A stretch of 59,532 nt of DNA from assembly GCA_016933965.1 (NCBI GenBank), contig JAFGTS010000044.1, positions 1 to 59,532 of the forward strand, read 5' to 3'. The DNA comes from Deltaproteobacteria bacterium. Lineage in GTDB: Bacteria > Desulfobacterota > Syntrophia > Syntrophales > UBA2210. This document shows, piece by piece, positions 3,419-31,465 of this stretch. How positions within the stretch are numbered: position 1 is the first letter of the stretch; each line of letters begins with the position of its first letter. The notes under the pieces are model-generated. The model searched no databases. It was not told where the DNA came from and saw only the letters and a program-made list of their open reading frames with translations. The position numbers and the translations under genes are program-made.

Positions 3419-3823
3419 CTACAGTTCCACGACAGCCGTCGCCATGCTGAGGACGGCGACACTCTCCTGGTTGGTTACTTTCAGATCGAGGGAAACCGTG
3501 TTCCCCTCCACGGCTGTGACGGTTCCCTCCGTTGTGACCGTATCGCCAAGGTGAACGGGTCGCGCGAACCGGCACTTGATCCGTTTGAGAGCGCCCGGAT
3601 CACCGGTCCAGTCGGTAACGGTCTTGGTCATGAAACCGAAGGTGCACAGTCCGTGAAGAATGACACCGCCGAGGCCCACCATCTTGCCGAATTCCGGGTC
3701 GATATGAATAGGATTGAAATCCCCGGAAGCCCCCGCGTAATAAATGGTCCGGTATTTATCCACTTCTTCTGAGGCGGTGAAGACCTCTCCCACCTTGATG
3801 TCCTGTATCTGTTTTTTTGCCAT
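3419..3823 (-). CDS. MaoC-family (R)-specific enoyl-CoA hydratase, catalytic subunit
   Basis: A 134-residue hot-dog-fold protein. The hydratase-2 motif is intact: GASGDFNPIHIDPEFG, with Asp35 and His40 as the expected catalytic pair. It would add water across a trans-2-enoyl-CoA in the cytoplasm. Its partner is very likely the preceding gene, a second MaoC-type protein lacking this Asp/His pair, giving a heteromer like ChsH1-ChsH2 of cholesterol degradation, in which ChsH1 carries the catalytic residues. A GGGGGAAAC ribosome-binding site precedes the start and the gap to the previous gene is 11 bases. The substrate is unknown. Confidence 0.85.
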   Translation of the reverse strand: MAKKQIQDIKVGEVFTASEEVDKYRTIYYAGASGDFNPIHIDPEFGKMVGLGGVILHGLCTFGFMTKTVTDWTGDPGALKRIKCRFARPVHLGDTVTTEGTVTAVEGNTVSLDLKVTNQESVAVLSMATAVVEL

Positions 3824-3834
3824 GGCGTTTCCCC

Positions 3835-4272
3835 CTATTTCCGTATCACGAAGGTGAAGGTGGCTCTGCAGACCATGTTTCCCTTCTGGTTCCGGCTTTC
3901 ACCGACAAGGGTGACCACGTCAAGCTTTTCCTTGTTTTCGATGTTGACGATCTTCCCCTTTGACGTGATGACATCGCCGGGTTTGACCACCTCGAAGAAT
4001 TCGAAATCCTGTTCTCCGTGCACGAGCATGAACAGGTTCAGATTGATCTCGGGATCGAAGAAAAAGGGTTCCGCCAGCATGCCGGCATATACCACCGAAA
4101 AGGTCGGAGGAGCGATGACGCTTCCGTAGGGTGTAGTTTTCCCGAATTCATCGTCCATATAATGCGGATCGGGGTTCTTGATGGCCTTGGCGTATTCTTT
4201 TACTTTTTCCTTGCCGATCTCATAGGTCAGGGGACCGTACTCCTTCCCGATAAACTTAACGTCCACTGCCAT
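3835..4272 (-). CDS. MaoC N-terminal-like (FAS1-type) dehydratase, probable non-catalytic partner
   Basis: A 145-residue hot-dog protein resembling the MaoC_dehydrat_N/FAS1-like dehydratase group. At the position of the usual GDxNPxH motif it reads IKNPDPHYMDDEFG, so the aligned catalytic Asp is Asn33 and the aligned His is Tyr38 (a His lies one residue earlier). This suggests a structural or substrate-binding subunit paired with the catalytic MaoC protein encoded next. The start MAVDVKF at 4272 has a strong GGAGGAAAATCC site; a longer frame beginning at 4290 would overlap the upstream gene and lacks one. Confidence 0.8.
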   Translation of the reverse strand: MAVDVKFIGKEYGPLTYEIGKEKVKEYAKAIKNPDPHYMDDEFGKTTPYGSVIAPPTFSVVYAGMLAEPFFFDPEINLNLFMLVHGEQDFEFFEVVKPGDVITSKGKIVNIENKEKLDVVTLVGESRNQKGNMVCRATFTFVIRK

Positions 4273-4286
4273 GGATTTTCCTCCTC

Positions 4287-5444
4287 TCAAGAAGTGAACT
4301 TGTCCAGTTCGTTTTTCGCGATGAACACCCGCTGCATTTCAGAAGTGCCCTCACAGATTTCTCCGAACTTTGCGTCACGGTACAGGCGCTCCGCTTCACT
4401 ACCCTTGAGGTACCCGTGGCCGGCAAATATCTGCATGGTCCAGTTGGCTATCTTGGATGCGGCCTCGGTGGACAGGAGCTTCGCGCAGGCGCCAATGACA
4501 TCGGCCTCTTCTTCTCCTTTGTTCATCGCCCATGCGGCGCGAAGTGCCAGCATTCTGCCCAGGTCATTGTAGGTGAACATGTCGGCGAGCTTGAATCCCA
4601 CGTCTTGAAAGGAACCGATCTTCCTGCCGAAAGCCTTCCTGTTTTTAGCCTGTGCCGTGGCCTTTTCCATGCAGGCCGTTCCTATCCCGACTGAGAACGC
4701 CGTTATCCCGACGGTTCCCATGGAGAGTATCTTTTTCAGCTGGGCGTGTCCCCGGCCCGGTTCACCGCCGAGAAATTCTGCGGTCCTGCATTCCGAGAGG
4801 GATACCGAGCTGAGCGGAAGTCCCCGGAGGCCCATCGTGTCGATTGTCTCGCCGACGGTCAGCCCCGGCGCGCCTTTTTCGACGATGAAAAAACTCATCC
4901 CCGTCTCGGCGCCCGCCTCGGCTGACGTATAGGCCAGGACCAGAAGGAGATCAGCGATCGGCCCGTTGGCGACGATATCCTTTTCTCCCGTCAGAACCCA
5001 GGTATCACCCCCCTTTTTCGCCGCCGCGGTTATGCCGGATATGTCGGAACCGGCTTCCGATTCGGAATAGGCGACGGCCCCCACCAGATCACCCTTCAAG
5101 AGCCCCGGAAGATACCGTTCCTTTTGCGCGGCCGTACCGAAAAGAGCGATCAGGCCGCCGCAGAGAAAGGTACTCGCCCGGCCACTGAGATACGTAGCCG
5201 GACAGACCTTGGCGATCTCTTCAGCAACGATATAGTTGCTGATCATGTCAATACCGGCATCGTCCACCCCGGCGCCGAGAAAGCCTGCACCGGCAAGTTT
5301 TTTCAGGTTCTCTCTGAGCAGGGTGAAGGCTTTCTCTTTCGGGCCTTCATCAAGTTTCCGGGCCGACGGGGCGATCTCGGTGCTGCAGAAAGCAGCGGCT
5401 TCTAGCTGTAACTTCTTTTGTGCTTCGTTCAATTCATAGTCCAT
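4287..5444 (-). CDS. Acyl-CoA dehydrogenase, subunit with EGT catalytic Glu
   Basis: A 385-residue flavoprotein with the usual order: helical N-terminal domain, middle beta domain (SESEAGSDISGI FAD/substrate motif near 130) and C-terminal helical domain ending ICEGTSEMQR. Glu365 sits where medium-chain acyl-CoA dehydrogenases carry their catalytic base. It would oxidise an acyl-CoA to the 2-enoyl-CoA and pass electrons to ETF. It directly follows another ACAD gene whose equivalent residue is Gly, so the two may form an alpha2beta2 enzyme like the ChsE pairs for steroid side chains. The substrate is unknown. Confidence 0.88.
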   Translation of the reverse strand: MDYELNEAQKKLQLEAAAFCSTEIAPSARKLDEGPKEKAFTLLRENLKKLAGAGFLGAGVDDAGIDMISNYIVAEEIAKVCPATYLSGRASTFLCGGLIALFGTAAQKERYLPGLLKGDLVGAVAYSESEAGSDISGITAAAKKGGDTWVLTGEKDIVANGPIADLLLVLAYTSAEAGAETGMSFFIVEKGAPGLTVGETIDTMGLRGLPLSSVSLSECRTAEFLGGEPGRGHAQLKKILSMGTVGITAFSVGIGTACMEKATAQAKNRKAFGRKIGSFQDVGFKLADMFTYNDLGRMLALRAAWAMNKGEEEADVIGACAKLLSTEAASKIANWTMQIFAGHGYLKGSEAERLYRDAKFGEICEGTSEMQRVFIAKNELDKFTS

Positions 5445-5461
5445 AGCAATACCCCCACATC

Positions 5462-6610
5462 CTACATTAACATGATTCTTGAGACGATCATCCGCATGAT
5501 GTCGGATGTTCCGCCGCCGATTGCACCGAGCCGGGCATCCCGGAAGTTACGCTCCACGGGATATTCGTGCATGAAACCGTAACCGCCGAATATCTGGACG
5601 GCCTGCGAGGCCATTTCGAATCCCATGTCACCGGCATAGACCTTGTTGACCGCCGCCTGGAGCGGGTTGAGCATCTGGCCGTTGTCCTTTGAGGAAGCAA
5701 CGCGGTAAATGGCCAGTTTCGCCGCTTCGACGAAAACCCGCATGTCGGCGATGCGATGCTGTATCGCCTGGAATTCGCGAATGGGCCGGTTGAACTGATA
5801 CCGCTCATTGGCATACCGTGAACAGAGCTCGATCCCGTAAATGGAAGAACCGAGGAAGGGAGAGAGCAGGGTGGAGCGGTCCCATTCGACGCCGCTGAGC
5901 GCGATCATCCAGCCGGCACCTTCACCGCCCAGGACGTTCTCCGCGGGGATCTCGCAGTCTTCGAAAAAGACCTCGGAGGTTGTCGAACACTTGCATCCCA
6001 TCTTGTGGAAAGGCTGGCCCGTCGAAAAACCCGGCGTTCCCTTTTCAACGACGAAGGCGGTGATACCCTTGTGCTTCAACTCCCGGTCGATACTGGCGAA
6101 AACAACGATCACGTCGGCCACGGGGGCATTGGTGATAAACGTTTTCGATCCGTTGAGAACATAGGAGTCACCCTTCCTGGTGGCCGTGGAACGCATCGAT
6201 GCCGCGTCGGAGCCCGCGCCGGGTTCGGTGAGACCCATGCATCCGATCCATTCTCCCGAGGCAAGCTTGGGCACATACTTCTTCTTCTGCTCCTCGGTGC
6301 CGAAGTTGAATATGTTGCAGGCACAGAGATAGGTGTGGGCTCCCCAGGCGAGAAGACTGCCGCCGTCGACACCGGCATGGCCGAGCGCCTCGCCCGCCAG
6401 GCAGCAGGTAACGATGTCCGCGCCGGAGCCGCCCAATTCCTCAGGGAACGGCAGGCCGAGAAGTCCCATATCGGCAAGCTTCTTCCAGATCTCAAAGCTG
6501 AATTCCCCCTTCAGGTCGGCTTCTTCACAGAGCGGAGTGATTTCTTCCTTTCCGTATCGGTATACCGTTTCCCTGAACATTCTTTGCTCGTCGCTGAGCG
6601 TGAAATCCAT
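5462..6610 (-). CDS. Acyl-CoA dehydrogenase, paired subunit lacking the EGT Glu
   Basis: A 382-residue ACAD starting MDFTLSDEQRMF. The middle domain has LTEPGAGSDAASM, and a GGYGFMHEYPVER helix is present. The C-terminal motif reads AIGGGTSDIM, so the medium-chain-type catalytic Glu is replaced by Gly366; on helix G, where isovaleryl-CoA dehydrogenase has LER, it reads WDR. The catalytic base is therefore altered (Asp) or absent. The start at 6610 is chosen for its GAGGAGGATGAT site; the frame continues 11 codons further up, into the previous gene. It lies 17 bases before the catalytic ACAD gene. Confidence 0.87.
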   Translation of the reverse strand: MDFTLSDEQRMFRETVYRYGKEEITPLCEEADLKGEFSFEIWKKLADMGLLGLPFPEELGGSGADIVTCCLAGEALGHAGVDGGSLLAWGAHTYLCACNIFNFGTEEQKKKYVPKLASGEWIGCMGLTEPGAGSDAASMRSTATRKGDSYVLNGSKTFITNAPVADVIVVFASIDRELKHKGITAFVVEKGTPGFSTGQPFHKMGCKCSTTSEVFFEDCEIPAENVLGGEGAGWMIALSGVEWDRSTLLSPFLGSSIYGIELCSRYANERYQFNRPIREFQAIQHRIADMRVFVEAAKLAIYRVASSKDNGQMLNPLQAAVNKVYAGDMGFEMASQAVQIFGGYGFMHEYPVERNFRDARLGAIGGGTSDIMRMIVSRIMLM

Positions 6611-6626
6611 ATCATCCTCCTCACAT

Positions 6627-7097
6627 CTATTGTACCGGTTCAAAGTATTTAATATCCAGAATGTGGCCCTTCCGTTCTTCCTTCCACACGGCCCTGACCT
6701 TCATGCCGTTCTTGACGGTTTTTCTGACAAGGTCCGCGTCACGCAGGTCAAATCCACCGACGAGATGGAGAAAGCTGGAATCAGTGCCGTCGAGCCGTAT
6801 CAGCGCGCCGATGAACGGGGGTTTTGTGGGCATGCCGAAGTACTCGTAATCGGTAAGGACCCACGATACGATGGCCCCTTCCTGTGATACCTCGGTTATG
6901 TCGTCGGTCTCGACAAAGCAGCGGGGACAGAAGGAGCGGGCCGGGACAAGGACCCGGTTGCACCGGGAACATCTCGAGCCGTAGATCTTCTTTTCCACCA
7001 GTCCTTCAAAAAAACGCGTCCATACCGGTCCGTACACGTTCTCGTAGGGTATGGCCACCTCATCTTCCAGAATATACAGGTCTTGTTTTTCTTCCAT
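6627..7097 (-). CDS. DUF35 zinc-ribbon/OB-fold protein (first of a tandem pair)
   Basis: A 156-residue protein with an N-terminal helix, a rubredoxin-like zinc ribbon (Cys43, Cys46, Cys57, Cys60; CSRC...CPRC) and a C-terminal OB fold ending GHILDIKYFEP. DUF35 proteins hold thiolase-superfamily enzymes together and channel CoA intermediates, as in the archaeal acetoacetyl-CoA thiolase/HMG-CoA synthase complex, BbsAB and Ltp2-ChsH2. It is clearly a tandem duplicate of the next gene up and lies between two thiolase-like genes and two ACAD genes, so it probably scaffolds the thiolase-like pair. Confidence 0.88.
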   Translation of the reverse strand: MEEKQDLYILEDEVAIPYENVYGPVWTRFFEGLVEKKIYGSRCSRCNRVLVPARSFCPRCFVETDDITEVSQEGAIVSWVLTDYEYFGMPTKPPFIGALIRLDGTDSSFLHLVGGFDLRDADLVRKTVKNGMKVRAVWKEERKGHILDIKYFEPVQ

Positions 7098-7118
7098 GAT
7101 GTCACCCCTTCCTACCGG

Positions 7119-7583
7119 CTATGACAAAGGCGCGAAATACTTGATATCAAGTATGTGGCCTTTTCTTTCATCGTTCCACACGGCCTCGACCCGTGCGCCT
7201 TTCCGGATCACTGAACCGACCGACTCCGGACTGGTCGTATCGAAGCCGCCGAGCAGATGCAGCAGGTTGCAGTCGGTCCCGTCGAGCTTGATAAGGGCGA
7301 TCACCACGGGAGGCTTTCCCGGCATGCCGAAGAATTCCTTGTCCGAATAGACCCAGGAAACGACCTCACCCTGCTGTGAGACCTCCACCGATGTGTCCAG
7401 GTTTTTCTGGCACTGCGGGCAGGAACTTCGCGCGGGGACGAAGGTCATGTTGCAGGAGGGGCAGGAGGTGCCGTATATCCTGCCTTCCTTGAGCCCGTTG
7501 TAGAACTGCGTGAATGTCCGGCCGGCCGCGTACTTATGGGGAAGCCTGACAACATTGTTAAATGTATCATAATCTCTTTTCAT
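7119..7583 (-). CDS. DUF35 zinc-ribbon/OB-fold protein (second of a tandem pair)
   Basis: A 154-residue DUF35 protein with zinc-ribbon cysteines 41, 44, 55 and 58 (CPSC...CPQC) and an OB fold with the same ERKGHILDIKYF ending as its neighbour. Conserved stretches include EFFGMPGKPP and LIKLDGTDCNLLHLLGGFD. The start has a GGAGGGGCAACG site. The two DUF35 genes suggest one scaffold subunit for each of the two thiolase-like proteins encoded directly upstream, at 7595-9913. Confidence 0.88.
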   Translation of the reverse strand: MKRDYDTFNNVVRLPHKYAAGRTFTQFYNGLKEGRIYGTSCPSCNMTFVPARSSCPQCQKNLDTSVEVSQQGEVVSWVYSDKEFFGMPGKPPVVIALIKLDGTDCNLLHLLGGFDTTSPESVGSVIRKGARVEAVWNDERKGHILDIKYFAPLS

Positions 7584-7594
7584 CGTTGCCCCTC

Positions 7595-8761
7595 CTACTT
7601 TTCTGAGCCGAGAATCATCACGCCGTTGAACTGGTCAACACCGCCCATGGCATGGGCAAGCGCCAATTTCGCTCCCGGTATCTGATGAGCTCCCGCCTGG
7701 TTCGTTACCTGCATCGCTGCTTCCACCACCCTGTTGAGACCGGTGGCGCCGATGGGGTTCGTGCACAGAGTGCCGCCCGACGGGTCGCAGGGCAGTTCCC
7801 CGGTGCGCGAGAAGACGCCGTTCAGGGTAAGGTCACAGGCTTCACCGAAGTCGCAGAATCCGAAGCATTCATAATAGAGGAGCTCCTGGAATGTAAATGG
7901 ATTGTAAACTTCCGCCACGTCGAGTTCTTTTCTCGGGTTCTTTATGCCCGCCATATCATAGGCCTGGCGTGATGCATTGATGGCACACTGCCATATCGCC
8001 TTTTCACTGTCGCCGAACCAGTATTCCTCGCCGCTGTAGCCGACACCCTTGATCCAGGCGGCTTTCTTGCCCAGTTTCCTGACCATGTCCTCCGAGGCAA
8101 AGATGGCGGCGCAGGCGCCGTCCGAGTTGGGACACACGTCCCACAACCGCACCGGATAGGTGATGATCCGTGCATTGTTCACCTCGTCCTCGGTCAGCTT
8201 CTTCTTGATATGGGCATAGGGGTTGTCGAAGGCATCATTGTGGTGATCGATCGACAGCCGCGTCGCCGCCGCCCTTACCTTTTCCTCGGGGATCCCGAAT
8301 TTGACCGACCATTCCTGGGACTGCATCGAAAAGACGCCAGGTGCGCCGGCGATGAAGAACCTCTGGTAAAAAGGCTCCAGAACGGTGGTCATCGTTGCCT
8401 GGGAGTCCCCTTCGTTCATCTTCTCGGAGCCCACCACAAGGACCAGATCGGCCAGGCCCGACGCCACCCAGTAGTACCCGGTGATAGCGAGTGATACCCC
8501 CGTGGAGCCGCAGGTCTCGGTCTTCAGGATCGGTTTACCCACTGAACGGAGCACGTCGGCAAAATAGAAGTGGGTGAGGGCGACGCCCTCCATCATCGAA
8601 GGCATGGTTCCCGAGACGACGCCCTCGATATAATCTGGTGAGATGCCGGTGTTCTCGAATACAGCATCAACGGCCTCCTTCACCAACTCGGGATAGGTAA
8701 CATCGAACCTCCGGCCATGCTTTGTCTGTCCTGATCCTATTATTGCAACTGGTCTTCCCAT
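7595..8761 (-). CDS. Thiolase-like protein (SCP-x/Ltp type) with nucleophile Cys
   Basis: A 388-residue thiolase-fold protein. It is the only one of the five in this window with a candidate nucleophile, Cys84, in KTETCGSTG. The usual His of the HPxGA loop is Asn (SGGTLCTNPIGATG), and the second catalytic Cys near the C-terminus is missing (AMGGVDQFNG). A normal Claisen thiolase would need these residues, so activity may be altered or shared with its partner. It is followed by two DUF35 genes and preceded 9 bases upstream by a divergent thiolase-like gene, which fits a hetero-oligomer. An AGGAGG site precedes the ATG. Confidence 0.85.
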   Translation of the reverse strand: MGRPVAIIGSGQTKHGRRFDVTYPELVKEAVDAVFENTGISPDYIEGVVSGTMPSMMEGVALTHFYFADVLRSVGKPILKTETCGSTGVSLAITGYYWVASGLADLVLVVGSEKMNEGDSQATMTTVLEPFYQRFFIAGAPGVFSMQSQEWSVKFGIPEEKVRAAATRLSIDHHNDAFDNPYAHIKKKLTEDEVNNARIITYPVRLWDVCPNSDGACAAIFASEDMVRKLGKKAAWIKGVGYSGEEYWFGDSEKAIWQCAINASRQAYDMAGIKNPRKELDVAEVYNPFTFQELLYYECFGFCDFGEACDLTLNGVFSRTGELPCDPSGGTLCTNPIGATGLNRVVEAAMQVTNQAGAHQIPGAKLALAHAMGGVDQFNGVMILGSEK

Positions 8762-8770
8762 AATTCCCTC

Positions 8771-9913
8771 CTAACTGCCGATGATCGCAACAGCATGGCA
8801 CTGTCCGGCAAAACCATGCGTTGAATGGGCCATCGCCGTCGTTACATCTCTGTTCAACTGCCGTTCACCCGCTTCTCCCCTGATCTGCAGGAAGCACTCC
8901 GCCAGACGGTACATGCCCCGCGAAACATACGGATTGAGGGCCAGAACGCCACCGGAAGGGTTGACCGGTATATCGCCGTCCGGCCGAGTCGCTCCGCTGT
9001 CGAGGAGCTTCCCTCCCTGGCCGGCGTCGCAGAATCCCAGGTCTTCGTACCAGAGAAGTTCTTGGAACGAATAGGGTTCACAGATCTCAGCAAGGTCGAT
9101 TTCCTTTTTCGGGTTCCTGATCCCCGCCATGCTGTACGCTCTCTTGGCGGCGTTCGGCAGTTCCCCCTTGAGGAGGTCCCTGTCGCCGACATAGAAACGG
9201 TCGATGGAGGAGCCGTAACCCTTCAGCCAGACCGGCTTGGGGGTCAGTTTTTTGGCCAATTCCTCTTTTGCCAGCACCATGGCTATGATGCCTTCCGATT
9301 TCGGCGCGCATTCCATGATTCTCAGCGGGTCCATGACGATCTCCGAGGAGAGGACATCGGTAACATCAAGCTTCTTCTTGATATGCGCGTAAGGATTTTT
9401 CAAGGCGTTCCCGAGATTTTTCACCACGACGCCGGCGCACTGCTCATCCGTGACGCCATAGCGGGCCATATATTCCCGTTTCTGCAGGGCCGCGGCGACC
9501 GTCTCGTTCAGGCCGACCTGGCGCTGGTAGAAGGGGTCGGTGAAGAAGTGGGTCAACATGTCGTTTTCAGGATTTTCGGAACCCTTGCAGATACCCAGGA
9601 CAAGGGCCGTATCGTAACTGCCCGAAAGGATACGCATGACGGCGTAAATGAACGCGAACAGGGATTCTCCGTCCTGCCGCGACCCGTTTTTCAGAAAGGC
9701 CGCGCCCGCATCCCAGTAATAGGAATTTGCGCAGGAAATGCCGCCGTGGAACACGTCCGAAGATGCGCTGATCACCGTTCCCAGTTCATCGCGGGACACG
9801 CCGGCCTTGTCCAGGACTTCCTTGCATACGCGGAATATCTGGTCAAGGAAGTTGTCCCTTGTTTCCGTTCCCGGTGTCATGGCAACCTCAACAATTCCAA
9901 CACGATTTGCCAT
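8771..9913 (-). CDS. Thiolase-like protein without catalytic Cys (type II)
   Basis: A 380-residue thiolase-superfamily protein starting MANRVGIVEV at an ATG with an AGGAGG site. The nucleophile region reads GSRQDGESLF (around 78-86), so no Cys is present; the His loop is LNPYVSRG and the C-terminal motif is THGFAGQCH. It resembles the product of 15686-16828 closely (shared DPFYxR, GDRDL, AxRAYxMAGxxNP and LGFCDxGxGG), and both stand directly before a type I thiolase-like gene. It may be a retro-aldolase like Ltp2 or a structural subunit; beta-ketothiolase activity on its own is unlikely. Confidence 0.82.
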   Translation of the reverse strand: MANRVGIVEVAMTPGTETRDNFLDQIFRVCKEVLDKAGVSRDELGTVISASSDVFHGGISCANSYYWDAGAAFLKNGSRQDGESLFAFIYAVMRILSGSYDTALVLGICKGSENPENDMLTHFFTDPFYQRQVGLNETVAAALQKREYMARYGVTDEQCAGVVVKNLGNALKNPYAHIKKKLDVTDVLSSEIVMDPLRIMECAPKSEGIIAMVLAKEELAKKLTPKPVWLKGYGSSIDRFYVGDRDLLKGELPNAAKRAYSMAGIRNPKKEIDLAEICEPYSFQELLWYEDLGFCDAGQGGKLLDSGATRPDGDIPVNPSGGVLALNPYVSRGMYRLAECFLQIRGEAGERQLNRDVTTAMAHSTHGFAGQCHAVAIIGS

Positions 9914-10075
9914 AATAAACCTCCTTTTTGTTGTCTCTGAAGATGGTGGGATCAGGGAACGATAATCCGGAACCCGGGGGCAACCCTCATGTAAAGAGCG
10001 GTGTGGCCGGAGTGTCTCAAAGAACACTCCGGTACCGTTGAGGCTCGTTCTTTCCCGTTCCCTTTGAATCGCTGC

Positions 10076-11878
10076 TTACGCTTCCGAGGGGTGCATCTTC
10101 TGGATAGCGTCCTTGTGTTTTTCCATGACCACTTTTCGCTTTACCTTGAGCGATGGCGTCAGCTCCCCCGTGTCTTCCGAGAAGGTCTGCTTGACGATGT
10201 GGTAGTACTTTATCGTTTCGTATTGTGCCAAGTGACTGTTTCGTTCGGCAACGCACTTGTCCACAAGGGCTCGGAAATCGTCACGGTCGAGCAGTTCTTC
10301 CGGCTTGGAGAAGCTCAGTCCCTCCTCGGCGGCAAGCCGCCCCGCTTCTTCAAGGTTTATATTGATAAGGGCCACGAGATACTTCATGCGGTCACCGATG
10401 ACGACGAACTGCTCGAAAAGCGGGTTCTGCTTGAAAAGGCCCTCGATGTTCTGGGGAGCGATGTTCTTGCCCCCCGCCGTGATGATAAGGTCTTTCTTGC
10501 GGTCCGTGATCTTCAGGTAGCCGTCCTCGTCAAATTCGCCGATGTCCCCCGATTTCAGCCATCCGTCCTCGGTGAAAGCCTCCTTTGTCTGCTCGGGCAT
10601 TTTCCAGTACCCGCTGATGACGTTGCCTCCCTTTATGAGAATTTCACCATCCTCTGCGATCCTGACCTCGTTGCATGACAGGGGGGTACCCGCAGTGCCG
10701 AACTTGTAGTTGTCGAGCTTGTTCAGCGTCGCCGGCGCGCTGCACTCGGTCATGCCATACCCTTCTATAAGAAAAATACCGGCGGCGTTGAAGAAATCGG
10801 CTATGTCCCTCGCGAGGGGGGCTCCCGAAGCGACCATCCAGCGGGTGCGCCCGCCAAGGGCCTGCCGCAATTTCTCAAAGACCATCTTGTAGGCGATCTT
10901 GTATTTCAGGTTGAGGAGCGGCGGTATCGATTTCTTCTGCTCCATCATTTTGCTGACTTCTGCGCCGACACCGACGGCCCAGTTGAAGACGGCCTGTTTC
11001 CATTTGGGCTGTGTTTTGGCCTGCCCGAGGATCTTCGCATAGACCTTTTCACATACCCGGGGAACGGCCAGCAGGACCGTGGGCTTCTTCGTCTGTATGT
11101 CTTCCACGATCGTGTCGAAGCTTTGCGTATAGTGCGTGTAGATACCAACACACATGGCGAAGAAGTGTCCCGCTACCCGCTGGAACACATGACAGAGTGG
11201 CAGAAAAGCCACCAGGACATCCCGGTCATCGGCCCAGTGCATGCCGTCAAGTGCCTCACAGACGGAAAGAATGTTTCCGTGAGTTATCATGGCCCCTTTC
11301 GGCGGACCCGTGGTACCCGATGTGTAAACAAATGTCGCCAGGTCGTCTCGTTCAACGGCGTCGGTCAGGGTTTCAAAGAGACCTGGCTCCCGGGCGGCGA
11401 GCTCCTTGCCCCGGGCCACCAGTTCGTCAAAGCTCATCAGCAGGTCGGACGACATGTCACAGCCCCGGGGGTCGATGACCACGATCTTTTCCAGGGTCGG
11501 ACAGTCGTCCAGGACATCGAGACCCTTCTGGAGGGCGGTCTTGTCCTCCGCTATGTAGATCTTCGATTCCGAGTTGCTGATGATATAACCCACTTCATGA
11601 GCGGGCAGGGTGACGTAAATGGGGATCGTCACGGCCCCGATGCCGATGATGCCAAGATCGGAAAGGATCCACTCGATCCGGTTCTGGGCCAGGAGAGAGA
11701 CGCGGTCTCCCCTCCTGACACCGAGGCTGTAAAGCCCGAGTCCGACATGGCGGGCGCCGTCGTAATACTCCTGCCAGGAGATACCTTTCCAGACCCCATC
11801 AAGCCGCTTCTCGACGGCGAGGCGTGATCCGTATTTCTTTGCCTGGTCCCGCAATATCTGTGCAAGATTCTTTTCCAT
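10076..11878 (-). CDS. AMP-forming long-chain acyl-CoA synthetase
   Basis: A 600-residue adenylate-forming enzyme of the FadD15/long-chain group. The phosphate loop YTSGTTGPPKG lies at 185-195, the adenine motif is EGYGMTECSA, and the GWLKSGDIGEFDEDGYL and DRKKDLIITAGGKNI motifs complete the core. It converts a free acid, ATP and CoA to acyl-CoA, AMP and pyrophosphate at the start of the pathway. It sits inside the operon between the beta-keto acid cleavage gene and the second thiolase-like pair. Long-chain specificity is inferred from family only; steroid or isoprenoid acids are also activated by such enzymes. Confidence 0.9.
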   Translation of the reverse strand: MEKNLAQILRDQAKKYGSRLAVEKRLDGVWKGISWQEYYDGARHVGLGLYSLGVRRGDRVSLLAQNRIEWILSDLGIIGIGAVTIPIYVTLPAHEVGYIISNSESKIYIAEDKTALQKGLDVLDDCPTLEKIVVIDPRGCDMSSDLLMSFDELVARGKELAAREPGLFETLTDAVERDDLATFVYTSGTTGPPKGAMITHGNILSVCEALDGMHWADDRDVLVAFLPLCHVFQRVAGHFFAMCVGIYTHYTQSFDTIVEDIQTKKPTVLLAVPRVCEKVYAKILGQAKTQPKWKQAVFNWAVGVGAEVSKMMEQKKSIPPLLNLKYKIAYKMVFEKLRQALGGRTRWMVASGAPLARDIADFFNAAGIFLIEGYGMTECSAPATLNKLDNYKFGTAGTPLSCNEVRIAEDGEILIKGGNVISGYWKMPEQTKEAFTEDGWLKSGDIGEFDEDGYLKITDRKKDLIITAGGKNIAPQNIEGLFKQNPLFEQFVVIGDRMKYLVALININLEEAGRLAAEEGLSFSKPEELLDRDDFRALVDKCVAERNSHLAQYETIKYYHIVKQTFSEDTGELTPSLKVKRKVVMEKHKDAIQKMHPSEA

Positions 11879-11932
11879 CTGCAGATCCTTCCTTCCCGGC
11901 TTCAGTGGTCGGGAGACGGTATTCCCGCACAG

Positions 11933-12793
11933 TTATTTCTGTTTAATTCCCATCAATTTCCGTGCTTCGTCCGGTGTGGCCGGTTCACGCCCGAGACAGG
12001 AAGCGATCCTGACGGCCCATTCAACCTGCTCATAGCTTCCCTTCGCCAGATCACCATTCGGCACCCGGATATTATCTTCAAGCCCTACCCGCATGTGTCC
12101 GCCCATGAGGCAGGAGAGAGTGATCGCCGGAAACTGGTCGATACCGACACCGCAGGTGGTGAAGTTTGCGTTTTCAGGAAGCGCGTTCACCATGGCGACG
12201 AAGCATTCGGGCCTGAAACGCTGCCCGCCGGCGACGCCCCAGACGAAGTTGAAATTTATCGGGTCCGAGAAGATCCCCTGCTTCTGGATCAGCAGGGTGT
12301 TGTCGAGACCGCCCAGGTCATAGCATTCGATCTCGGGCTTTACACCGTTCGCTTCCATTGCTTTGCCGAAATCCTGCAGCATGGTGAAGGTGTTTTCAAA
12401 GACATAATCGATCATGATCTGTCCCGTGCCGCGATCAACGATACCGAAGTTCATCGTGTTCGTGTTCAGTGAGGCCATTGCGGGCTTGACGGCGACGATC
12501 TGCTCGATCCTCTGTTCTTTCGTCGCACCCATGCCGACGGCGGAACTCAGATTGACGATGAGATCGGGGCATCGCTCCTTGATCGCGTCATGGGTCGCCT
12601 GGATCCTTTCGATCACGTGCGTCGGCATTCCCTCGTCGCCCCGCGCGTGGACATGAACCATGGCGGCACCCGCCTTATAACAACGTTCCGCCTCGTCGGC
12701 GAATTCCTGAGGCGTATAGGGAACGGCTGGATTCTGGTTCTTGAAGGTTCCGGCGCCCGCCAGGGCGGCACAAATAATAACCTTTTTCGACAT
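11933..12793 (-). CDS. Beta-keto acid cleavage enzyme (BKACE, DUF849)
   Basis: A 286-residue TIM-barrel protein of the DUF849 family. The metal-binding HVHAR motif is at 47-51, with NLSSAVGMG, the SLNTNTMNFG strand and GGHMRVGLEDN near the C-terminus. Characterised BKACEs (founder: 3-keto-5-aminohexanoate cleavage enzyme Kce) take a beta-keto acid and acetyl-CoA to acetoacetate and a new acyl-CoA, using divalent zinc and no thiolase-type Cys. In this operon it offers a second, thiolase-independent way to cut a beta-keto intermediate. It has a strong AAGGAGGG site and follows a DUF35 gene. Confidence 0.88.
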   Translation of the reverse strand: MSKKVIICAALAGAGTFKNQNPAVPYTPQEFADEAERCYKAGAAMVHVHARGDEGMPTHVIERIQATHDAIKERCPDLIVNLSSAVGMGATKEQRIEQIVAVKPAMASLNTNTMNFGIVDRGTGQIMIDYVFENTFTMLQDFGKAMEANGVKPEIECYDLGGLDNTLLIQKQGIFSDPINFNFVWGVAGGQRFRPECFVAMVNALPENANFTTCGVGIDQFPAITLSCLMGGHMRVGLEDNIRVPNGDLAKGSYEQVEWAVRIASCLGREPATPDEARKLMGIKQK

Positions 12794-12839
12794 GACAACT
12801 ACCCTCCTTGTTTCGGTTTGTTTCTATGCTCAATTCCCC

Positions 12840-13304
12840 TTACAGGGGTTCAAAATGATCAAGGTCCAGAATTGTGTTCGTCGTTTCCTGCGCATACACG
12901 GCCTTTACCCGCATGCCGACCTTCACGTCCTCCACATCGATACCCTCCACGATGTGAGCGAAGGGCGTATCGGCGCCGTCCACCTTGATAAGCGCGAGAA
13001 TATAGGGTGCGCGCCGCGGAAGATGCTTGTCGTTGTAGTAGACGATCGTGTAGTTGGTGATGACGCCCTCATCGGAGAGCTCCACCCAGTTCTCGTCTAT
13101 CTTGGAGAAGCATCTCTCACAGTATTCACGGGGCGGAATAAAAACCTTGTTGCACTTATCACATTTGACCCCGAGGATCTTGTGATCATCCCGGAGGGAG
13201 ATGATGAACTTTGTTCCGACCCTCCCGGCGAAGTACTGGTTGGGCAAGGCCATCTTCCCCGTAAACACTCTGCAGTCTTTCGTTATTTCTTTGATTACGG
13301 CCAT
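12840..13304 (-). CDS. DUF35 zinc-ribbon/OB-fold protein
   Basis: A 154-residue DUF35 protein starting MAVIKEITKD at 13304 (AAGGAGGAC site; a longer frame would run into the upstream gene). The zinc ribbon is CDKC...CERC and the OB fold ends TILDLDHFEPL. The stretch DGADTPFAHIVEGIDVEDV is typical of the family. It is the fourth gene of the block 12840-16828, in the same position that a DUF35 gene holds in the block 6627-9913. Probably a scaffold partner of the two thiolase-like proteins encoded upstream. Confidence 0.87.
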   Translation of the reverse strand: MAVIKEITKDCRVFTGKMALPNQYFAGRVGTKFIISLRDDHKILGVKCDKCNKVFIPPREYCERCFSKIDENWVELSDEGVITNYTIVYYNDKHLPRRAPYILALIKVDGADTPFAHIVEGIDVEDVKVGMRVKAVYAQETTNTILDLDHFEPL

Positions 13305-13317
13305 TGGTAGTCCTCCT

Positions 13318-14475
13318 TCAGTCGGCGATCTCAAAGTAGAGGAGATCCTTGTACGTTCCCGTTCGCTTTTCCGCCCACACCGGACGGACCTTCATACCCG
13401 GTTTTATCCGGTCGATGTCCCGTGGATTCAGATCATGGGCGAAACTCTCGTCCCGTGATCCTCCATCAAAGACCATGAACAGGGCCGTATAGGGGGTTTT
13501 CCGAATCTTTCCGGTCAGCGGATCGGGACTGGCATAGTACACAACGTCTATAAGGGTGACCGTAGCCTCCGGGCCAACCTCGACGAATTCCGTGGCCCGC
13601 ACCCGGCACTGCGCGCAGATCTCCCGGGGCGGAACCATCAATTTTCCGCAATTGGGACATTTGGACGCGATGAACTTCTTTTCCTTCAATCCCGAGAACC
13701 ACTTGCCAACGATGGGTCCCGTGGCGTATCGCTGATCGATCGACGGGATGCATTTCAGGGAGATAAGTTCTTCACCCTTTTCCTCCGCCGCGCCCTCAGC
13801 TTGAAACTTGGAGAAGAATTTCGCCGTCGCGCCGGCGGCCCCGATATCGCCGTCGATCTTCACCTGGCCCGAAGTGAATGCCGTCGCCCCGTCGAGCTTT
13901 CCCGTATTGAGATCGACGAAGACCTGGGCGTCCATTTTCATGGTGACGATACAGTCGCCGTCAAGCTCGTTCTTGACGGAGCAGGCGCCCTCCTTGACGA
14001 TCACCGTCCACTGACCGCCACCCTCGCCAGCGAGATCGTAACCGATCTTCATGTCAGCGCCTTCGGCCTTGTCGGGACGGAACCGCTCGGGCATGCTTTC
14101 AATGATACTGCTTGCCCGCACGATGGGCGTAAAGGGACGGAAGGCCTTCGGCAGGACCGCGATGAGAACGGTCAGATCCCCGTCGACGGAAATGTTTCCT
14201 GACGAAAGGGCCTCACCGGCGTCTATTTTCCCCAGGGTAACACCCACGAAAGTTTCCGCCTTGGCGTTGAGGATAGCCGTGCAGCCTGAAACTTCAGCGT
14301 CCAGTTTTTCAACGGTGAGGGCCCCCTTCTTTATCGTGACCTTCCAGTGTCCGCCGCCTTCTCCCGAAACATTGTATCCGATGGTGACATCCACATCCTG
14401 TGTTCCCTCCGGAAGAAAGCGAACCTCCATGGTATTGAATATATCTTCTACTCTTGAACCAAAGTATTCAGCCAT
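13318..14475 (-). CDS. Fusion protein: SCP2-SCP2-DUF35
   Basis: A 385-residue protein starting MAEYFGSRVEDIF (ATG at 14475 with a GGAGG site). Residues about 1-112 and 115-230 are two sterol-carrier-protein-2-like domains with the same core (VDVTIGYNVSGEGGGHWKV and ADMKIGYDLAGEGGGQWTV, then ALSSGNISVDGDL and AFTSGQVKIDGDI). Residues about 240-385 form a DUF35 domain with a CPNC...CAQC zinc ribbon and an OB fold ending DLLYFEIAD. SCP2 domains bind hydrophobic acyl-CoAs, so this looks like a substrate carrier built into a thiolase scaffold. It immediately follows two thiolase-like genes. Confidence 0.85.
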   Translation of the reverse strand: MAEYFGSRVEDIFNTMEVRFLPEGTQDVDVTIGYNVSGEGGGHWKVTIKKGALTVEKLDAEVSGCTAILNAKAETFVGVTLGKIDAGEALSSGNISVDGDLTVLIAVLPKAFRPFTPIVRASSIIESMPERFRPDKAEGADMKIGYDLAGEGGGQWTVIVKEGACSVKNELDGDCIVTMKMDAQVFVDLNTGKLDGATAFTSGQVKIDGDIGAAGATAKFFSKFQAEGAAEEKGEELISLKCIPSIDQRYATGPIVGKWFSGLKEKKFIASKCPNCGKLMVPPREICAQCRVRATEFVEVGPEATVTLIDVVYYASPDPLTGKIRKTPYTALFMVFDGGSRDESFAHDLNPRDIDRIKPGMKVRPVWAEKRTGTYKDLLYFEIAD

Positions 14476-14485
14476 TGCCAACCTC

Positions 14486-15673
14486 CTACCAGTTTAAGTC
14501 TTTCTCGAGCATCATGAGAACGGTCCATAAGGTTCCACCGAAGCCCGAGGCGAGGGCGTGCCGGACCTCCTTCTTGATCTGCTGGGGACCCGCGTCGCCG
14601 CGGATCTGCAGTGCCGCTTCAGCCGGGCGGAGCATTGCAGTCGCCCCGATGGGGTTGCTTGCGATAACACCGCCCGAGGGATTGACAGGGAGCTTGCCGT
14701 CCAGGTCGAATTCACCTTCCTCCAGCATTCTCAAATGTTCGTCATCGTCCAGAAGCAGAAATTCCCGCAGCCAGTCAAGGCCCCACCACGCGGAGGGGTC
14801 GTACATTTCAAAGACGTCGAAATACTCGACGGGATTTTTGATGCCGTTGCGCTCGAAAAGCTTCCGGGCGGCATAGTGATGGGTCATTTCCGGCATGTCG
14901 ATACCGAAATTATTGAAGGTTTCTTCCCGGTGAACGGTGATGTGGTCCCGGACCCACACGGGGTTTTTGCTGAACTTCTTGGCCTTTTTCTCGGCAGCGA
15001 AGATCATCACGCAGGCGCCGTCGCTCTGTGAGCACATGTGGATCAGACGGAGCTCACCCACCAGCTGGGGAGACGTGTTCATCAGTTCCTCAAGCTGATC
15101 GTATTCGAGGCCGAAACGCCGATGAGCACGGGGGTTGAGACAGGCGTGCTTGTCCATCAGGATCCGGTACTTCATGGCCGCTCTTCGTGCCCTGTCTTCG
15201 CCGAATTCATCTATCATCATCGTGGCCGTCGTGGCCGTCAGGGCGCCGGTCTGCAAATGGCGGAACCAGAGGGGGTCGGCCATATTGGTGATGCCGCCCG
15301 TGGTATGCCCTTCCTGAAGTTTTTCGAGTCCGATGGCCATGACCACGTCATACATGCCCGATGCCACGAGATTGTCGGCGGCGCAGACGAGGGTGGCACC
15401 GGTGGTGCCGCCCGTGGTGATCCTGAACTGATCCTTTCCGAATGCACCGGAGCCCAGCGCGTGCCACATGTCAGGCTGGTGGACCATCTCGAAGAGTTCC
15501 ATGTTCCCGTGGATGACGCAATCAATGTCATCCAGCGTGATGTTCGCGTCCTCCAGTGCATATCGAACGGCTTCGTTGACCATTTCCACCTGGTTCTGGT
15601 GCTCCTTATGGCTTGAAAATTCGGTCTGGCCGATGCCGATTATCCCCACATTTCTGTTTTTCTTTTTTCCCAT
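14486..15673 (-). CDS. Thiolase-like protein, Cys replaced by Gly (type I)
   Basis: A 395-residue thiolase-fold protein. Where the Cys-bearing neighbour has TCGSTG it reads TTGGTTGA, giving Gly88 in the nucleophile position. The His loop is SGGVIASNPIGATA with Asn in place of His, and the C-terminal catalytic Cys is absent (ASGFGGTLW). Fold landmarks such as DGACVMIFAAEKKA and NPSGGV are intact, so this is not random decay. It follows the type II gene at 15686-16828 and precedes the SCP2-DUF35 fusion. Retro-aldolase or acyl-CoA-binding roles are possible; thiolysis by the classic mechanism is not expected. Confidence 0.83.
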   Translation of the reverse strand: MGKKKNRNVGIIGIGQTEFSSHKEHQNQVEMVNEAVRYALEDANITLDDIDCVIHGNMELFEMVHQPDMWHALGSGAFGKDQFRITTGGTTGATLVCAADNLVASGMYDVVMAIGLEKLQEGHTTGGITNMADPLWFRHLQTGALTATTATMMIDEFGEDRARRAAMKYRILMDKHACLNPRAHRRFGLEYDQLEELMNTSPQLVGELRLIHMCSQSDGACVMIFAAEKKAKKFSKNPVWVRDHITVHREETFNNFGIDMPEMTHHYAARKLFERNGIKNPVEYFDVFEMYDPSAWWGLDWLREFLLLDDDEHLRMLEEGEFDLDGKLPVNPSGGVIASNPIGATAMLRPAEAALQIRGDAGPQQIKKEVRHALASGFGGTLWTVLMMLEKDLNW

Positions 15674-15685
15674 GGTCCTTCCTCC

Positions 15686-16828
15686 TTATTTCTCCAGCAC
15701 GAGGACTGAATGAAATTGACCCGCGCCTCCGGTGATGCTGTGGGCAACGGCCCGCTTCACATCAGCTGCCTGATGTTCGCCCGCCTTACCCTGGAGCTGG
15801 AGCACTGCCTCCGCGGCACGATACAGGCCGCCCGTCATGAGGGGATTTCCGGCCAGCATGCCGCCCGAAAGATTGACGTTGCACTGTGCCGGTCCGTTTT
15901 CGTCGATGAAACCGCCTCCCGTTCCTTCATCACAGAAACCGAGGCCTTCGAGCCACAGGGGCTGCTGGTATGCGTAACAGTCCATGAGTTCCACAAGGTC
16001 CACGTCTTTTCTGGGGTTCTTTACGCCTGCCATGCGGTAGGCACGCGCGGCCGCCTTCTTCAGGGCGAAATTGCCCGTCAGGTCCCGGTCTCCCAGAAAG
16101 TATGAGTCCATGCAGCTGCCGAACCCCGTGAGCCATACGGGATTGTCCGTGAATTCATGGGCCCGCTCCTCAGAGGCGAGCAGAATCGCCACGGCGCCAT
16201 CTGAAACGGGATAGGCATGGAGCGTGCGAATGGGATCACAGAGCATGGGTGAGAACATGACTTCCCCCGGTTCCACCTGTCCCGTCGCGTTCGCCTTTGG
16301 GTTCCGCGCCGCCCACTGTCGTGCCCTGACGACGACCTTTGCCAGCTGTTCTTCGGTCAGGCCTGATTTTTCCATGTATGCCCGTGCCTGAAGTGCCGAG
16401 GTGTTCAGATAGTCAAGGCCCATGGCCCTGCCGTAAAAAGGATCATAGGCGAGATTGGTGCACATGTTCCTGCTCTCGGCCTGGGATTCCTTGCAGTGAC
16501 CGGCGACATACACCAGGTCCTGATGTCCCGAGAGGATTATCGCCATGGCGTACCCCAGGGCGTTGAGCCCGTCCTGGGCCATTTTTTCCTCCTCGCGGTA
16601 GTGCGCACCGACAACATCGGTCATGCCGTTGTCGGATATGGTCCGGGCGTCGAAGACATCGTCCGAGGCGGTGACAATGGTCTGAACGCCGTTTTCTTCA
16701 GAGAAGTTCACGCCTGTCTGTTCCTGAATTTCTTCGAGAACATCAAGGAGCATGCCCTGAAACCGCTTGTACCAGAGATTTGAATCACATTTGTGCTGTG
16801 CGACAGCACAGACGGCAACCCTTTTCAT
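15686..16828 (-). CDS. Thiolase-like protein without catalytic Cys (type II)
   Basis: A 380-residue thiolase-superfamily protein. The nucleophile region reads EKMAQDGLNALGYAM, with no Cys; the His loop is AGNPLMTGG and the last motif is ITGGAGQFH. It is the closest relative in the window of the 8771-9913 product, sharing ASDDVF, DPFYGR, GDRDL, AYRMAGVKNPRKD and LGFCDEGTGG. First thiolase-like gene of the operon, after the PHP gene. Probably the partner of the type I protein encoded 12 bases downstream. Confidence 0.82.
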   Translation of the reverse strand: MKRVAVCAVAQHKCDSNLWYKRFQGMLLDVLEEIQEQTGVNFSEENGVQTIVTASDDVFDARTISDNGMTDVVGAHYREEEKMAQDGLNALGYAMAIILSGHQDLVYVAGHCKESQAESRNMCTNLAYDPFYGRAMGLDYLNTSALQARAYMEKSGLTEEQLAKVVVRARQWAARNPKANATGQVEPGEVMFSPMLCDPIRTLHAYPVSDGAVAILLASEERAHEFTDNPVWLTGFGSCMDSYFLGDRDLTGNFALKKAAARAYRMAGVKNPRKDVDLVELMDCYAYQQPLWLEGLGFCDEGTGGGFIDENGPAQCNVNLSGGMLAGNPLMTGGLYRAAEAVLQLQGKAGEHQAADVKRAVAHSITGGAGQFHSVLVLEK

Positions 16829-16862: not shown

Positions 16863-17444
16863 TCAAGCCAACATTATCGCCCGTGCCTGGCCCCTGGCAT
16901 AGCAATTAATCACATCGCCGGCTTTGATTGTTCTGATGATGGAATCTCTGTCCTTCGGACAGTCAACCTCTATCCATGCCCGCCCGCACCCCAGTGTCGT
17001 GTGCGAGTCATCCGAGGCGACCTTGGGGTAGGGGATGGCATCAATATCATATTCGGGTGTGAGAAAACCGTGGTGGGTGATCTCCACGGCATCGATGGGG
17101 TACTCCTTCGCCACGTCGTTGATGCAGGTGATGGTTTGTTTCATGGTAAAGCCATAGTCTCCCGGGTGATTGAAGGTGTGGAGTATCTCGGTATCTCCTT
17201 CGATGCGGCTGACATGAACATACCCGAAAGGTGTGCCCACGGTCAGTTCGATCCCGAAAAAAACCATAAGCTCCGTCTTCACACTGGTGACGGCATCACG
17301 ATAACTCGGTTTCAAAAGATGGTCATGGTCGGTGAACGCGATGAAATCGAACCCCAGCCTGGCATACGTGTCGGCTGCTTCCTGCGGTGTCAGCCTGCCG
17401 TCGGAGAATGTTGTGTGAATATGAAGCTGACCTTTCAGGCGCAT
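16863..17444 (-). CDS. PHP-domain metal-dependent hydrolase
   Basis: A 193-residue PHP-fold protein. Metal-binding motifs are visible: LHIHTTFSDG (His8, His10), FTDHDH (Asp39-His42), a His at FNHPGD, ITHHGF and SDDSHT near 148. PHP proteins are phosphoesterases or other metal hydrolases in the cytoplasm. The protein is shorter than DNA polymerase-type or histidinol phosphatase PHPs. It lies between the TetR regulator and the first thiolase-like gene on the same strand, so it is probably part of the operon. No clear ribosome-binding site precedes the ATG. The substrate is unknown. Confidence 0.8.
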   Translation of the reverse strand: MRLKGQLHIHTTFSDGRLTPQEAADTYARLGFDFIAFTDHDHLLKPSYRDAVTSVKTELMVFFGIELTVGTPFGYVHVSRIEGDTEILHTFNHPGDYGFTMKQTITCINDVAKEYPIDAVEITHHGFLTPEYDIDAIPYPKVASDDSHTTLGCGRAWIEVDCPKDRDSIIRTIKAGDVINCYARGQARAIMLA

Positions 17445-17487: not shown

Positions 17488-18126
17488 TTATTCGCGGCAC
17501 AGGTCCTTATCGATGGTTCCTCCCGTTTCTCCCGCCGCGGCGGTCATCGCACCGCAGAGAAATATCCGGATGATGGCGTTTATCGTTCGTTCGGCCCGCT
17601 GCCTGTTCAGTTTCTCCTTGCCCAGGACCATCACGGAGATAAAGGCTTCCATGGCTCCGAGGAAAATGTACGTCATGTAATGAGGCGGTACATCCTTCCT
17701 GAGAATGCCCTTCTTCTGGGCGTCCGACATGATCTCATCGCACATGGTAAAGAACTTTCTGAACCGCATCAGTCCCCGTTCCGTGCGGTAGAGGGAACTG
17801 CGGGAAACCTCCGTGATGAAGATGGAAAGCAGGAAAAAACGATTTGAGTAGGTATCAAGGAAAAACCTGATGATGTTCGCCAGTTTCTCCTTCAGTTCCG
17901 CGTCCGATTGCCGCTGGTTCTCGAGCATTTCATAGAGGGTGTTCCACCACTTCTCTACGATGTTGTCGAAAAAGGCCTCCTTGCTTTCAAAGTAATGGTA
18001 CACGAGACCGTATGAAACGCCGGCTTTCTTGGCAATGTCGGCCATGCGGGTGTTGGCATAGCCTTTCTCGCAGAACACTTCGAGAGCCGCATCAATGATC
18101 ATTTCTTGTTTGTCGTTCTTAGCCAT
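17488..18126 (-). CDS. TetR/AcrR-family transcriptional repressor
   Basis: A 212-residue regulator with an N-terminal TetR helix-turn-helix (residues about 8-55; MADIAKKAGVSYGLVYHYFESKEAFF) and a helical C-terminal ligand domain. It stands at the head of the minus-strand catabolic operon and opposite an acyl-CoA dehydrogenase gene. A perfect palindrome, ATTGACATGTCAAT, covers the TTGACA of its own predicted promoter, and near-identical sites lie upstream of the divergent ACAD and of the CoA-transferase genes. Many TetR proteins of this kind are released from DNA by an acyl-CoA; that the ligand here is a pathway CoA ester is inference. No ribosome-binding site is seen before the ATG, which fits a leaderless mRNA. 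Confidence 0.88.
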   Translation of the reverse strand: MAKNDKQEMIIDAALEVFCEKGYANTRMADIAKKAGVSYGLVYHYFESKEAFFDNIVEKWWNTLYEMLENQRQSDAELKEKLANIIRFFLDTYSNRFFLLSIFITEVSRSSLYRTERGLMRFRKFFTMCDEIMSDAQKKGILRKDVPPHYMTYIFLGAMEAFISVMVLGKEKLNRQRAERTINAIIRIFLCGAMTAAAGETGGTIDKDLCRE

Positions 18127-31448: not shown

Positions 31449-31465
31449 GGGAAGGGGGCGATACC

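Follow-up and report, generated by a model that had tools for sequence, protein, structure and literature searches.

Two candidate heteromeric thiolase-fold aldol-lyases of separate ancestry in one operon of a deltaproteobacterium

The window analyzed here is a stretch of 59,532 nucleotides from the start of contig JAFGTS010000044.1 (C44) in the 2.85 Mb genome of a Deltaproteobacteria bacterium (assembly GCA_016933965.1). It carries a long operon with two blocks of genes, each of which codes for a type II thiolase-like protein (TII), a type I thiolase-like protein (TI), and two proteins with a DUF35 domain. On balance, we lean slightly toward a model in which the blocks encode two different heteromeric thiolase-fold acyl-coenzyme A (acyl-CoA) aldol-lyases, each with TI as the catalytic subunit, TII as a degenerate partner, and the DUF35 proteins as staples. 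The two enzymes would have been recruited modularly to serve a bulky or branched acyl-CoA, with a beta-keto acid cleavage enzyme (BKACE) handling a beta-keto acid product. The composition, phylogeny, conserved linkage, residue patterns, and fusions are taken from sequence, whereas the reaction steps are inferred.

The operon extends from a TetR gene at position 18126 to a MaoC gene at 3419, all on the minus strand, and is longer than first described. Its order is TetR, PHP, TII-1, TI-1, SCP2-SCP2-DUF35, DUF35, BKACE, acyl-CoA ligase, TII-2, TI-2, DUF35, DUF35, two acyl-CoA dehydrogenases, and two MaoC hydratase subunits. Adjacent genes overlap or are separated by less than 60 bp, with the sole exception of a 162-bp gap from the ligase gene to that for TII-2, which is the site where relatives hold two CoA-transferase genes. 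A previous reading of this DNA, made from the sequence only, had described blocks at 16828-12840 (block 1) and 9913-6627 (block 2) with a BKACE and an acyl-CoA ligase between them, and the open reading frames and Pfam matches agree with that composition. The BKACE matches PF05853 at 309 bits and the ligase matches the AMP-ligase family. Thiolase_C_1 (PF22691) is matched by all four thiolase-like proteins of the blocks, zf-ChsH2 by all four DUF35 proteins, and OB_ChsH2_C by three of these four, whereas the product of 13318-14481 includes two SCP2 stretches. The motifs DPFYxR, GDRDL, AYxMAGxxNP, and LGFCDxGxGG, which the same reading had noted in the TII proteins, are common to both window representatives and most of 89 homologues, and thus are features of the family rather than chance similarities.

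Three additional TII-TI-DUF35 blocks reside on other contigs of the same genome, bringing the total to five. These are arranged as BKACE-DUF35-TII-TI-DUF35 (C34), BKACE-TII-TI-DUF35-DUF35 (C22), and dehydrogenase-MaoC-TII-TI-DUF35 (C43). Screening of 84,980 species genomes yielded 80 loci, nearly all of which carry TII followed by TI together with DUF35. The hosts include Deltaproteobacteria, Syntrophaceae, Dehalococcoidia, Bacillota, and Actinomycetota, as well as the archaea Methanolliviera, Jordarchaeia, and Freyarchaeota. Exactly two DUF35 genes are located nearby in 62 of 106 scored TI/TII pairs. The genome under study has 13 DUF35 matches in all, and more thiolase-DUF35 or thiolase-MaoC gene pairs are present on contigs C31, C32, C16, C13, and C47. 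A TII-TI-DUF35-DUF35 block is also found on a megaplasmid of Cupriavidus necator (L157:7995-11441), a culturable host that makes a convenient laboratory model.

In a joint tree, the TI and TII proteins form two sister clades whose internal order is mirrored. The pairwise distances of the two proteins match closely (Mantel r 0.96 for 86 blocks, a value reached in 0 of 999 permutations), and the pair has therefore traveled jointly ever since an old duplication. The trees were built by a quick maximum-likelihood method with support from the Shimodaira-Hasegawa-like approximate likelihood ratio test (SH-aLRT) only; some deep forks are open, but the branches on which we rely are starred. The sequence-only reading correctly recognized that each thiolase-like gene of one block has its paralogue in the other, in the same order, TII with TII and TI with TI, and the pairs have diverged to 39% (TII) and 33% (TI) identity. 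Block 1 and block 2 fall into different deep lineages in both trees, and their thiolase-like members are not each other's closest relatives. Block 2 is nearer to the C22 block of its own genome (63% and 67% identity), and closer relatives of each block are found in other genomes, including those of other phyla, where block 2 groups with archaea and Chloroflexota. Read from these trees, the double block of the window is a product of modular recruitment of two lineages and not of duplication within the operon. DUF35-PRK07937-PRK08313 blocks from Streptomyces and Nonomuraea also place within the TII and TI clades, whereas proteins from Haloterrigena were too divergent for placement.

The modular nature of the arrangement is further evident from sister operons. 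A cassette of PHP, TII, TI, SCP2-SCP2-DUF35, DUF35, and BKACE genes recurs in relatives, whereas the downstream genes vary. The small PHP gene is upstream of TII-1 in every intact relative that was read (54-73% identity), and the full-length SCP2-SCP2-DUF35 protein is present in 27 of 155 genomes of the class. In Type A operons, which include that of the window, the cassette is followed by the ligase, a CoA-transferase pair, block 2, dehydrogenases, and hydratases. Type B operons carry the dehydrogenases directly after the cassette, with no second block within the stretch read. In Type C operons, the cassette is followed by the ligase, the CoA-transferase pair, a second block of the C34 lineage, TetR, dehydrogenases, and hydratases. 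Most Type C genes are orthologues of window genes. Their proteins are 76-77% (BKACE), 68-70% (TI-1), 62-69% (dehydrogenase a), and 63-65% and 73% (CoA-transferase) identical to their window counterparts, but their second block shares only about 42% and 38% identity with window block 2. Six sister operons carry this different-lineage second block. The refilling of the second slot from another lineage suggests that the pathway needs a second TI/TII enzyme.

Residue patterns suggest different roles for the two subunits. A Tyr is found at the HDCF/YDxF position of all 88 TI sequences, whereas solved SCP2-thiolases carry His, and Asn replaces the other thiolase His, likewise in all 88. Two known enzymes cannot carry out retro-aldol cleavage without the corresponding Tyr (Tyr294 of Ltp2 and Tyr302 of Sal; PMC12329534). 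The position of Sal Cys304 (YDC) is Pro in 87 of the 88, and the C-terminal second thiolase Cys is absent. A Cys at the nucleophile position is retained by 57 of the 88, all from the block-2 lineage, whereas the block-1 and C34 lineages have Gly; among the block proteins of the window it is present in TI-2 and absent from TI-1 and both TII proteins. TII sequences have no thiolase Cys and carry the YDxF Tyr in only 11 of 89 cases. An identity as canonical SCP2-thiolases was considered for TI and rejected on the universal Asn, the missing second Cys, and the confinement of the first Cys to one lineage.

Single-chain AlphaFold models (predicted local distance difference test scores of 85.5 for TI-2 and 86.1 for TII-2) were compared with solved structures. 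TI-2 is a good match to the DUF35-partnered enzymes 6esq (Z score 52.9), BbsB (49.8), PhlC (48.9), Sal (45.0), and Ltp2 (45.0), with SCP2- and archaeal thiolases also among the matches, and TII-2 gives similar results. As far as these models go, the fold cannot separate an aldolase from a thiolase. One alternative is that the blocks perform different chemistries, with block 1 (Gly) acting as a retro-aldolase and block 2 acting as an acyl-cysteine enzyme, either a thiolase or a PhlC-like C-acyltransferase. Cys84 and Tyr286 of TI-2 resemble Cys88 and Tyr298 of PhlC, and the spacing from this Tyr to the following His or Asn is 49 residues in both proteins. Moreover, PhlC requires Cys88 and is the sole catalytic member of PhlABC (PMC6392133). 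However, TI-2 has only part of the PhlABC-type residue set, with Asn335 at the position of PhlC His347, and it lacks the second thiolase Cys. In addition, the second slot of Type C operons holds a Gly-type TI amid orthologous ligase, CoA-transferase, dehydrogenase, and hydratase genes, which suggests that the step is independent of Cys. We regard this alternative as possible but doubtful.

The exchangeable second slot, along with the five blocks in the genome, could also indicate that the two blocks are redundant isozymes that catalyze the same step with different chain-length preferences. This seems unlikely given that each block has its own constant neighbors, since PHP, SCP2-DUF35, and BKACE accompany only block 1, and that both blocks are retained in the same operon across genera.

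In five of five orthologous dehydrogenase pairs, adjacent subunits differ in that the catalytic Glu is missing from both of its known positions in subunit a but is present in subunit b, as in steroid-type heteromeric acyl-CoA dehydrogenases. MaoC subunit a likewise lacks the catalytic Asp, whereas subunit b carries DxNPxH. Steroid side-chain clusters are characterized by such paired dehydrogenase and hydratase subunits alongside an aldolase (PMC8399759; PMC6678751). The BKACE gene is conserved beside block 1 in relatives, and three of the four BKACE genes in the genome adjoin TI/TII blocks (chance about 5e-5 if genes were randomly placed). BKACEs linked to these blocks come from three sequence clusters, and their tree correlates weakly with the TII tree (r 0.36), which probably reflects more than one recruitment. 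In six Type C loci, DUF35-1b and BKACE form a single protein of 474-480 residues. This natural gene fusion is exemplified by L149:8268-9695, has equivalents in L150-L154 and L161, and extends to further families within the phylum. Among the papers listed by a literature search on DUF35 with BKACE or DUF849, none covered both.

In relatives, a glutaconate-CoA-transferase-like pair is encoded between the ligase and the second block (L035, L037, L038, L040, L089, and L149-L151). The corresponding window genes (30459-32236, plus strand) are about 14 kb from the operon and encode proteins that are 72-76% and 80-85% identical to the intra-operon orthologues. Judged by this linkage, the pair belongs to the system. 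It also adjoins BKACE in L165 and L168, where TI/TII blocks are missing. An IpdAB-like hydrolase identity was rejected because the pair most closely matches glutaconate CoA-transferase and has retained the Glu position. No carboxylase for a 3-hydroxy-3-methylglutaryl (HMG)-type substrate was found in the operon or next to those blocks that were examined, and the seven carboxyltransferase-domain matches of the genome are all on other contigs. Thus, an HMG-type intermediate would need another route or a carboxylase encoded elsewhere in the genome.

The same gene set bears on the direction of the pathway. The complexes might instead catalyze condensation, of the aldol or Claisen type, to make, for example, a branched lipid, since thiolase-type reactions are reversible and the top structural neighbor of TI-2, 6esq, is the thiolase of an archaeal HMG-CoA synthase/thiolase/DUF35 complex. 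However, the ligase, two acyl-CoA dehydrogenases, hydratase, BKACE, CoA-transferase, and TetR are typical of degradation and the operon has no reductase, which makes a biosynthetic role quite improbable. Recent duplication of a block within the operon followed by specialization, which the sequence-only reading had favored from the shared TII-TI-DUF35-DUF35 order and gene-by-gene paralogy, has almost nothing left to recommend it, given that the blocks are less similar to each other than block 2 is to a block on another contig, that starred branches separate them in both the TI and TII trees, that Type B operons have block 1 without a second block, and that occupation of the second slot by two lineages rules out duplication on the spot.

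The preferred model of two recruited aldol-lyases can be compared with several characterized systems. The sequence-only reading stated that it knew of no described system of exactly this composition. This was too strong, as the actinobacterial DUF35-PRK07937-PRK08313 blocks lie within the same two clades, and so the kind of enzyme is already known even if its enzymology is thin. We take Ltp3 and Ltp4 of Mycobacterium tuberculosis to be members of PRK08313 and PRK07937, respectively. The window proteins score far below the NCBIfam cut-offs for these families (343 versus 514 bits for TI-2 with PRK08313, and 161 versus 419 bits for TII-1 with PRK07937), whereas a Streptomyces pair scores above both. 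Ltp3-Ltp4 is the closest known kind, with two different thiolase-like subunits and DUF35, and the adjacent window subunits derive from the TI and TII clades as do the Streptomyces and Nonomuraea pairs. The window differs from it in having two blocks per operon, the SCP2-SCP2 fusion, BKACE and CoA-transferase partners, and an anaerobe-type lineage. The actinobacterial heteromeric aldol-lyase Ltp3-Ltp4 acts in sterol side-chain degradation and is reported to cleave C24-C25 once a carboxylated C24 branch has been hydrated; the carboxylate so produced needs re-thioesterification (PMC6678751).

Ltp2-ChsH2 and Sal-Shy share with the window the thiolase fold, a DUF35 partner (ChsH2 or Shy), the Tyr of YDxF/Y, Gly for Cys in the case of TI-1, and clustering with a heteromeric dehydrogenase and hydratase. 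They differ in having one aldolase subunit instead of two, in Sal Cys304 where TI has Pro, and in that TI-2 retains the thiolase Cys. PhlABC and the archaeal thiolase/HMG-CoA synthase/DUF35 complex likewise join a catalytic and a partner condensing-fold subunit through DUF35, with one PhlABC partner being inert, but their partner is HMG-CoA-synthase-like, whereas both window subunits are SCP2-thiolase-like with Asn for PhlC His347. The benzoylsuccinyl-CoA thiolase BbsAB is anaerobic, has a DUF35-partnered thiolase fold, and is among the best structural matches, but it has a single thiolase subunit and the window proteins are far under the BbsA and BbsB cut-offs. The igr operon, or C3 side-chain cluster (ChsE1-ChsE2, ChsH1-ChsH2, and Ltp2), similarly combines a heteromeric dehydrogenase, a heteromeric MaoC hydratase, DUF35, and an aldolase, whereas the window has separate DUF35 genes, two aldolase blocks, and the ligase, BKACE, and CoA-transferase. 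What is new is the pairing of two blocks in one operon, the SCP2-SCP2-DUF35 protein, the association with BKACE and a CoA-transferase, the fusion of DUF35 to BKACE, and how far the module has spread among anaerobes.

In the proposed pathway, the ligase would activate a bulky or branched acid, which the heteromeric dehydrogenase and MaoC hydratase would convert into a beta-hydroxyacyl-CoA. TI, using its invariant Tyr as a base, would then perform retro-aldol cleavage to a short acyl-CoA and a ketone or beta-keto acid, with one block acting on an earlier intermediate and the other on a later one. BKACE, docked on the block-1 complex via DUF35-1b, might convert the beta-keto acid and acetyl-CoA into a shortened acyl-CoA and acetoacetate; acetyl-CoA, one possible aldolase co-product, would be its second substrate. 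The CoA-transferase could reactivate the free acid, and SCP2-SCP2-DUF35 could hand lipophilic substrate to the complex. In Ltp2-ChsH2, Sal-Shy, and PhlABC, the thiolase-fold subunit is bound by DUF35, so the DUF35-BKACE fusion fits such docking, and an analogous role for SCP2-SCP2-DUF35 would be to carry a lipid substrate. If the carboxylate product is of the Ltp3-Ltp4 type, it would be a beta-keto acid and hence a substrate for BKACE. Two C-C cleaving hetero-oligomers in one pathway, as the sequence-only reading had suggested, appear to be the best interpretation.

Several observations dampen our enthusiasm for this model. No gene of the operon indicates the substrate, and complex formation is deduced from homology and fusion, the structural models being of single chains. 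TI has Pro in place of the second catalytic residue of Sal, Cys304, which serves there as catalytic acid, the Cys of TI-2 would suit an acyl-enzyme route, and BKACE is nearby in 51 of 106 scored blocks, so that about half are without it.

More tentatively, the operon might encode a multi-enzyme assembly of anaerobes that has yet to be described, with DUF35 proteins connecting SCP2-SCP2 (substrate delivery) and BKACE (re-thioesterification of the product with acetyl-CoA) to a two-subunit aldol-lyase core. Such an assembly would permit cleavage at branched or quaternary carbons free of ATP and oxygen, and would provide the activation step missing from the Ltp3-Ltp4 pathway. The DUF35-BKACE fusion suggests a general docking role for DUF35, and it offers a direct and testable prediction for how the free carboxylate left by an aldolase is reactivated. 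Thiolase-fold aldol cleavage with DUF35 partners is so far known mostly from steroid degraders, whereas the two-subunit version is a widespread module of anaerobic bacteria of several phyla and archaea, often in multiple copies per genome. The model would also supply a function for many proteins annotated only as "thiolase domain-containing protein". Coordinates of the window genes are collected in Table 1.

Table 1. Genes of the operon and the displaced CoA-transferase pair, with positions in the window.
Feature	Position	Strand	Basis or remark
TetR-family regulator, operon gene 1	17488..18126	-	Pfam TetR_N; position same in most relatives
PHP-domain protein, constant first gene of block-1 cassette	16863..17444	-	Pfam PHP
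TII-1, thiolase-like; probable non-catalytic partner	15686..16828	-	Lacks thiolase Cys/His
TI-1, thiolase-like; probable catalytic retro-aldolase	14486..15673	-	Aldolase-position Tyr (EMYDPS), His to Asn, nucleophilic Cys to Gly
SCP2-SCP2-DUF35 fusion; probable lipid/acyl-CoA carrier, DUF35-tethered to complex	13318..14481	-	Pfam
DUF35-1b	12840..13334	-	Pfam and fusion; Type C orthologue is part of a BKACE fusion protein
BKACE	11933..12793	-	Pfam PF05853, 309 bits
Acyl-CoA ligase, AMP-forming	10076..11878	-	FadD11-like
TII-2, thiolase-like partner subunit	8771..9913	-	
TI-2, thiolase-like subunit	7595..8761	-	Cys84, Tyr286, Asn335
DUF35-2a	7119..7583	-	
DUF35-2b	6627..7097	-	
Acyl-CoA dehydrogenase subunit a	5462..6643	-	Catalytic Glu replaced (Gly/Asp) in 5/5 orthologues
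Acyl-CoA dehydrogenase subunit b	4287..5444	-	Glu present in 5/5
MaoC-like hydratase subunit a	3835..4290	-	HadA-like, without catalytic Asp
MaoC-like hydratase subunit b	3419..3823	-	Catalytic DxNPxH present in 5/5
CoA-transferase subunit A	30459..31448	+	Glutaconate-CoA-transferase-like; displaced in window, intra-operon in relatives
CoA-transferase subunit B	31466..32236	+	Glu position present (FEAGG); displaced in window, intra-operon in relatives

Outside of the operon, the window carries a fifth thiolase-like gene at 22535-23971 (minus strand), which is of the PRK06365 type with an HDAF motif, and the count of five such proteins in the sequence-only reading is thus borne out. The fifth DUF35-like protein it had listed is less certain. 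The next gene, at 21928-22518 (minus strand), codes for 196 residues with CxxxxC and CxxC motifs but has no Pfam match, and perhaps represents a divergent DUF35. Elsewhere in the window (26192-29169, minus strand), a gene for a histone-deacetylase-like protein adjoins one for a stand-alone hydantoinase A-type protein.

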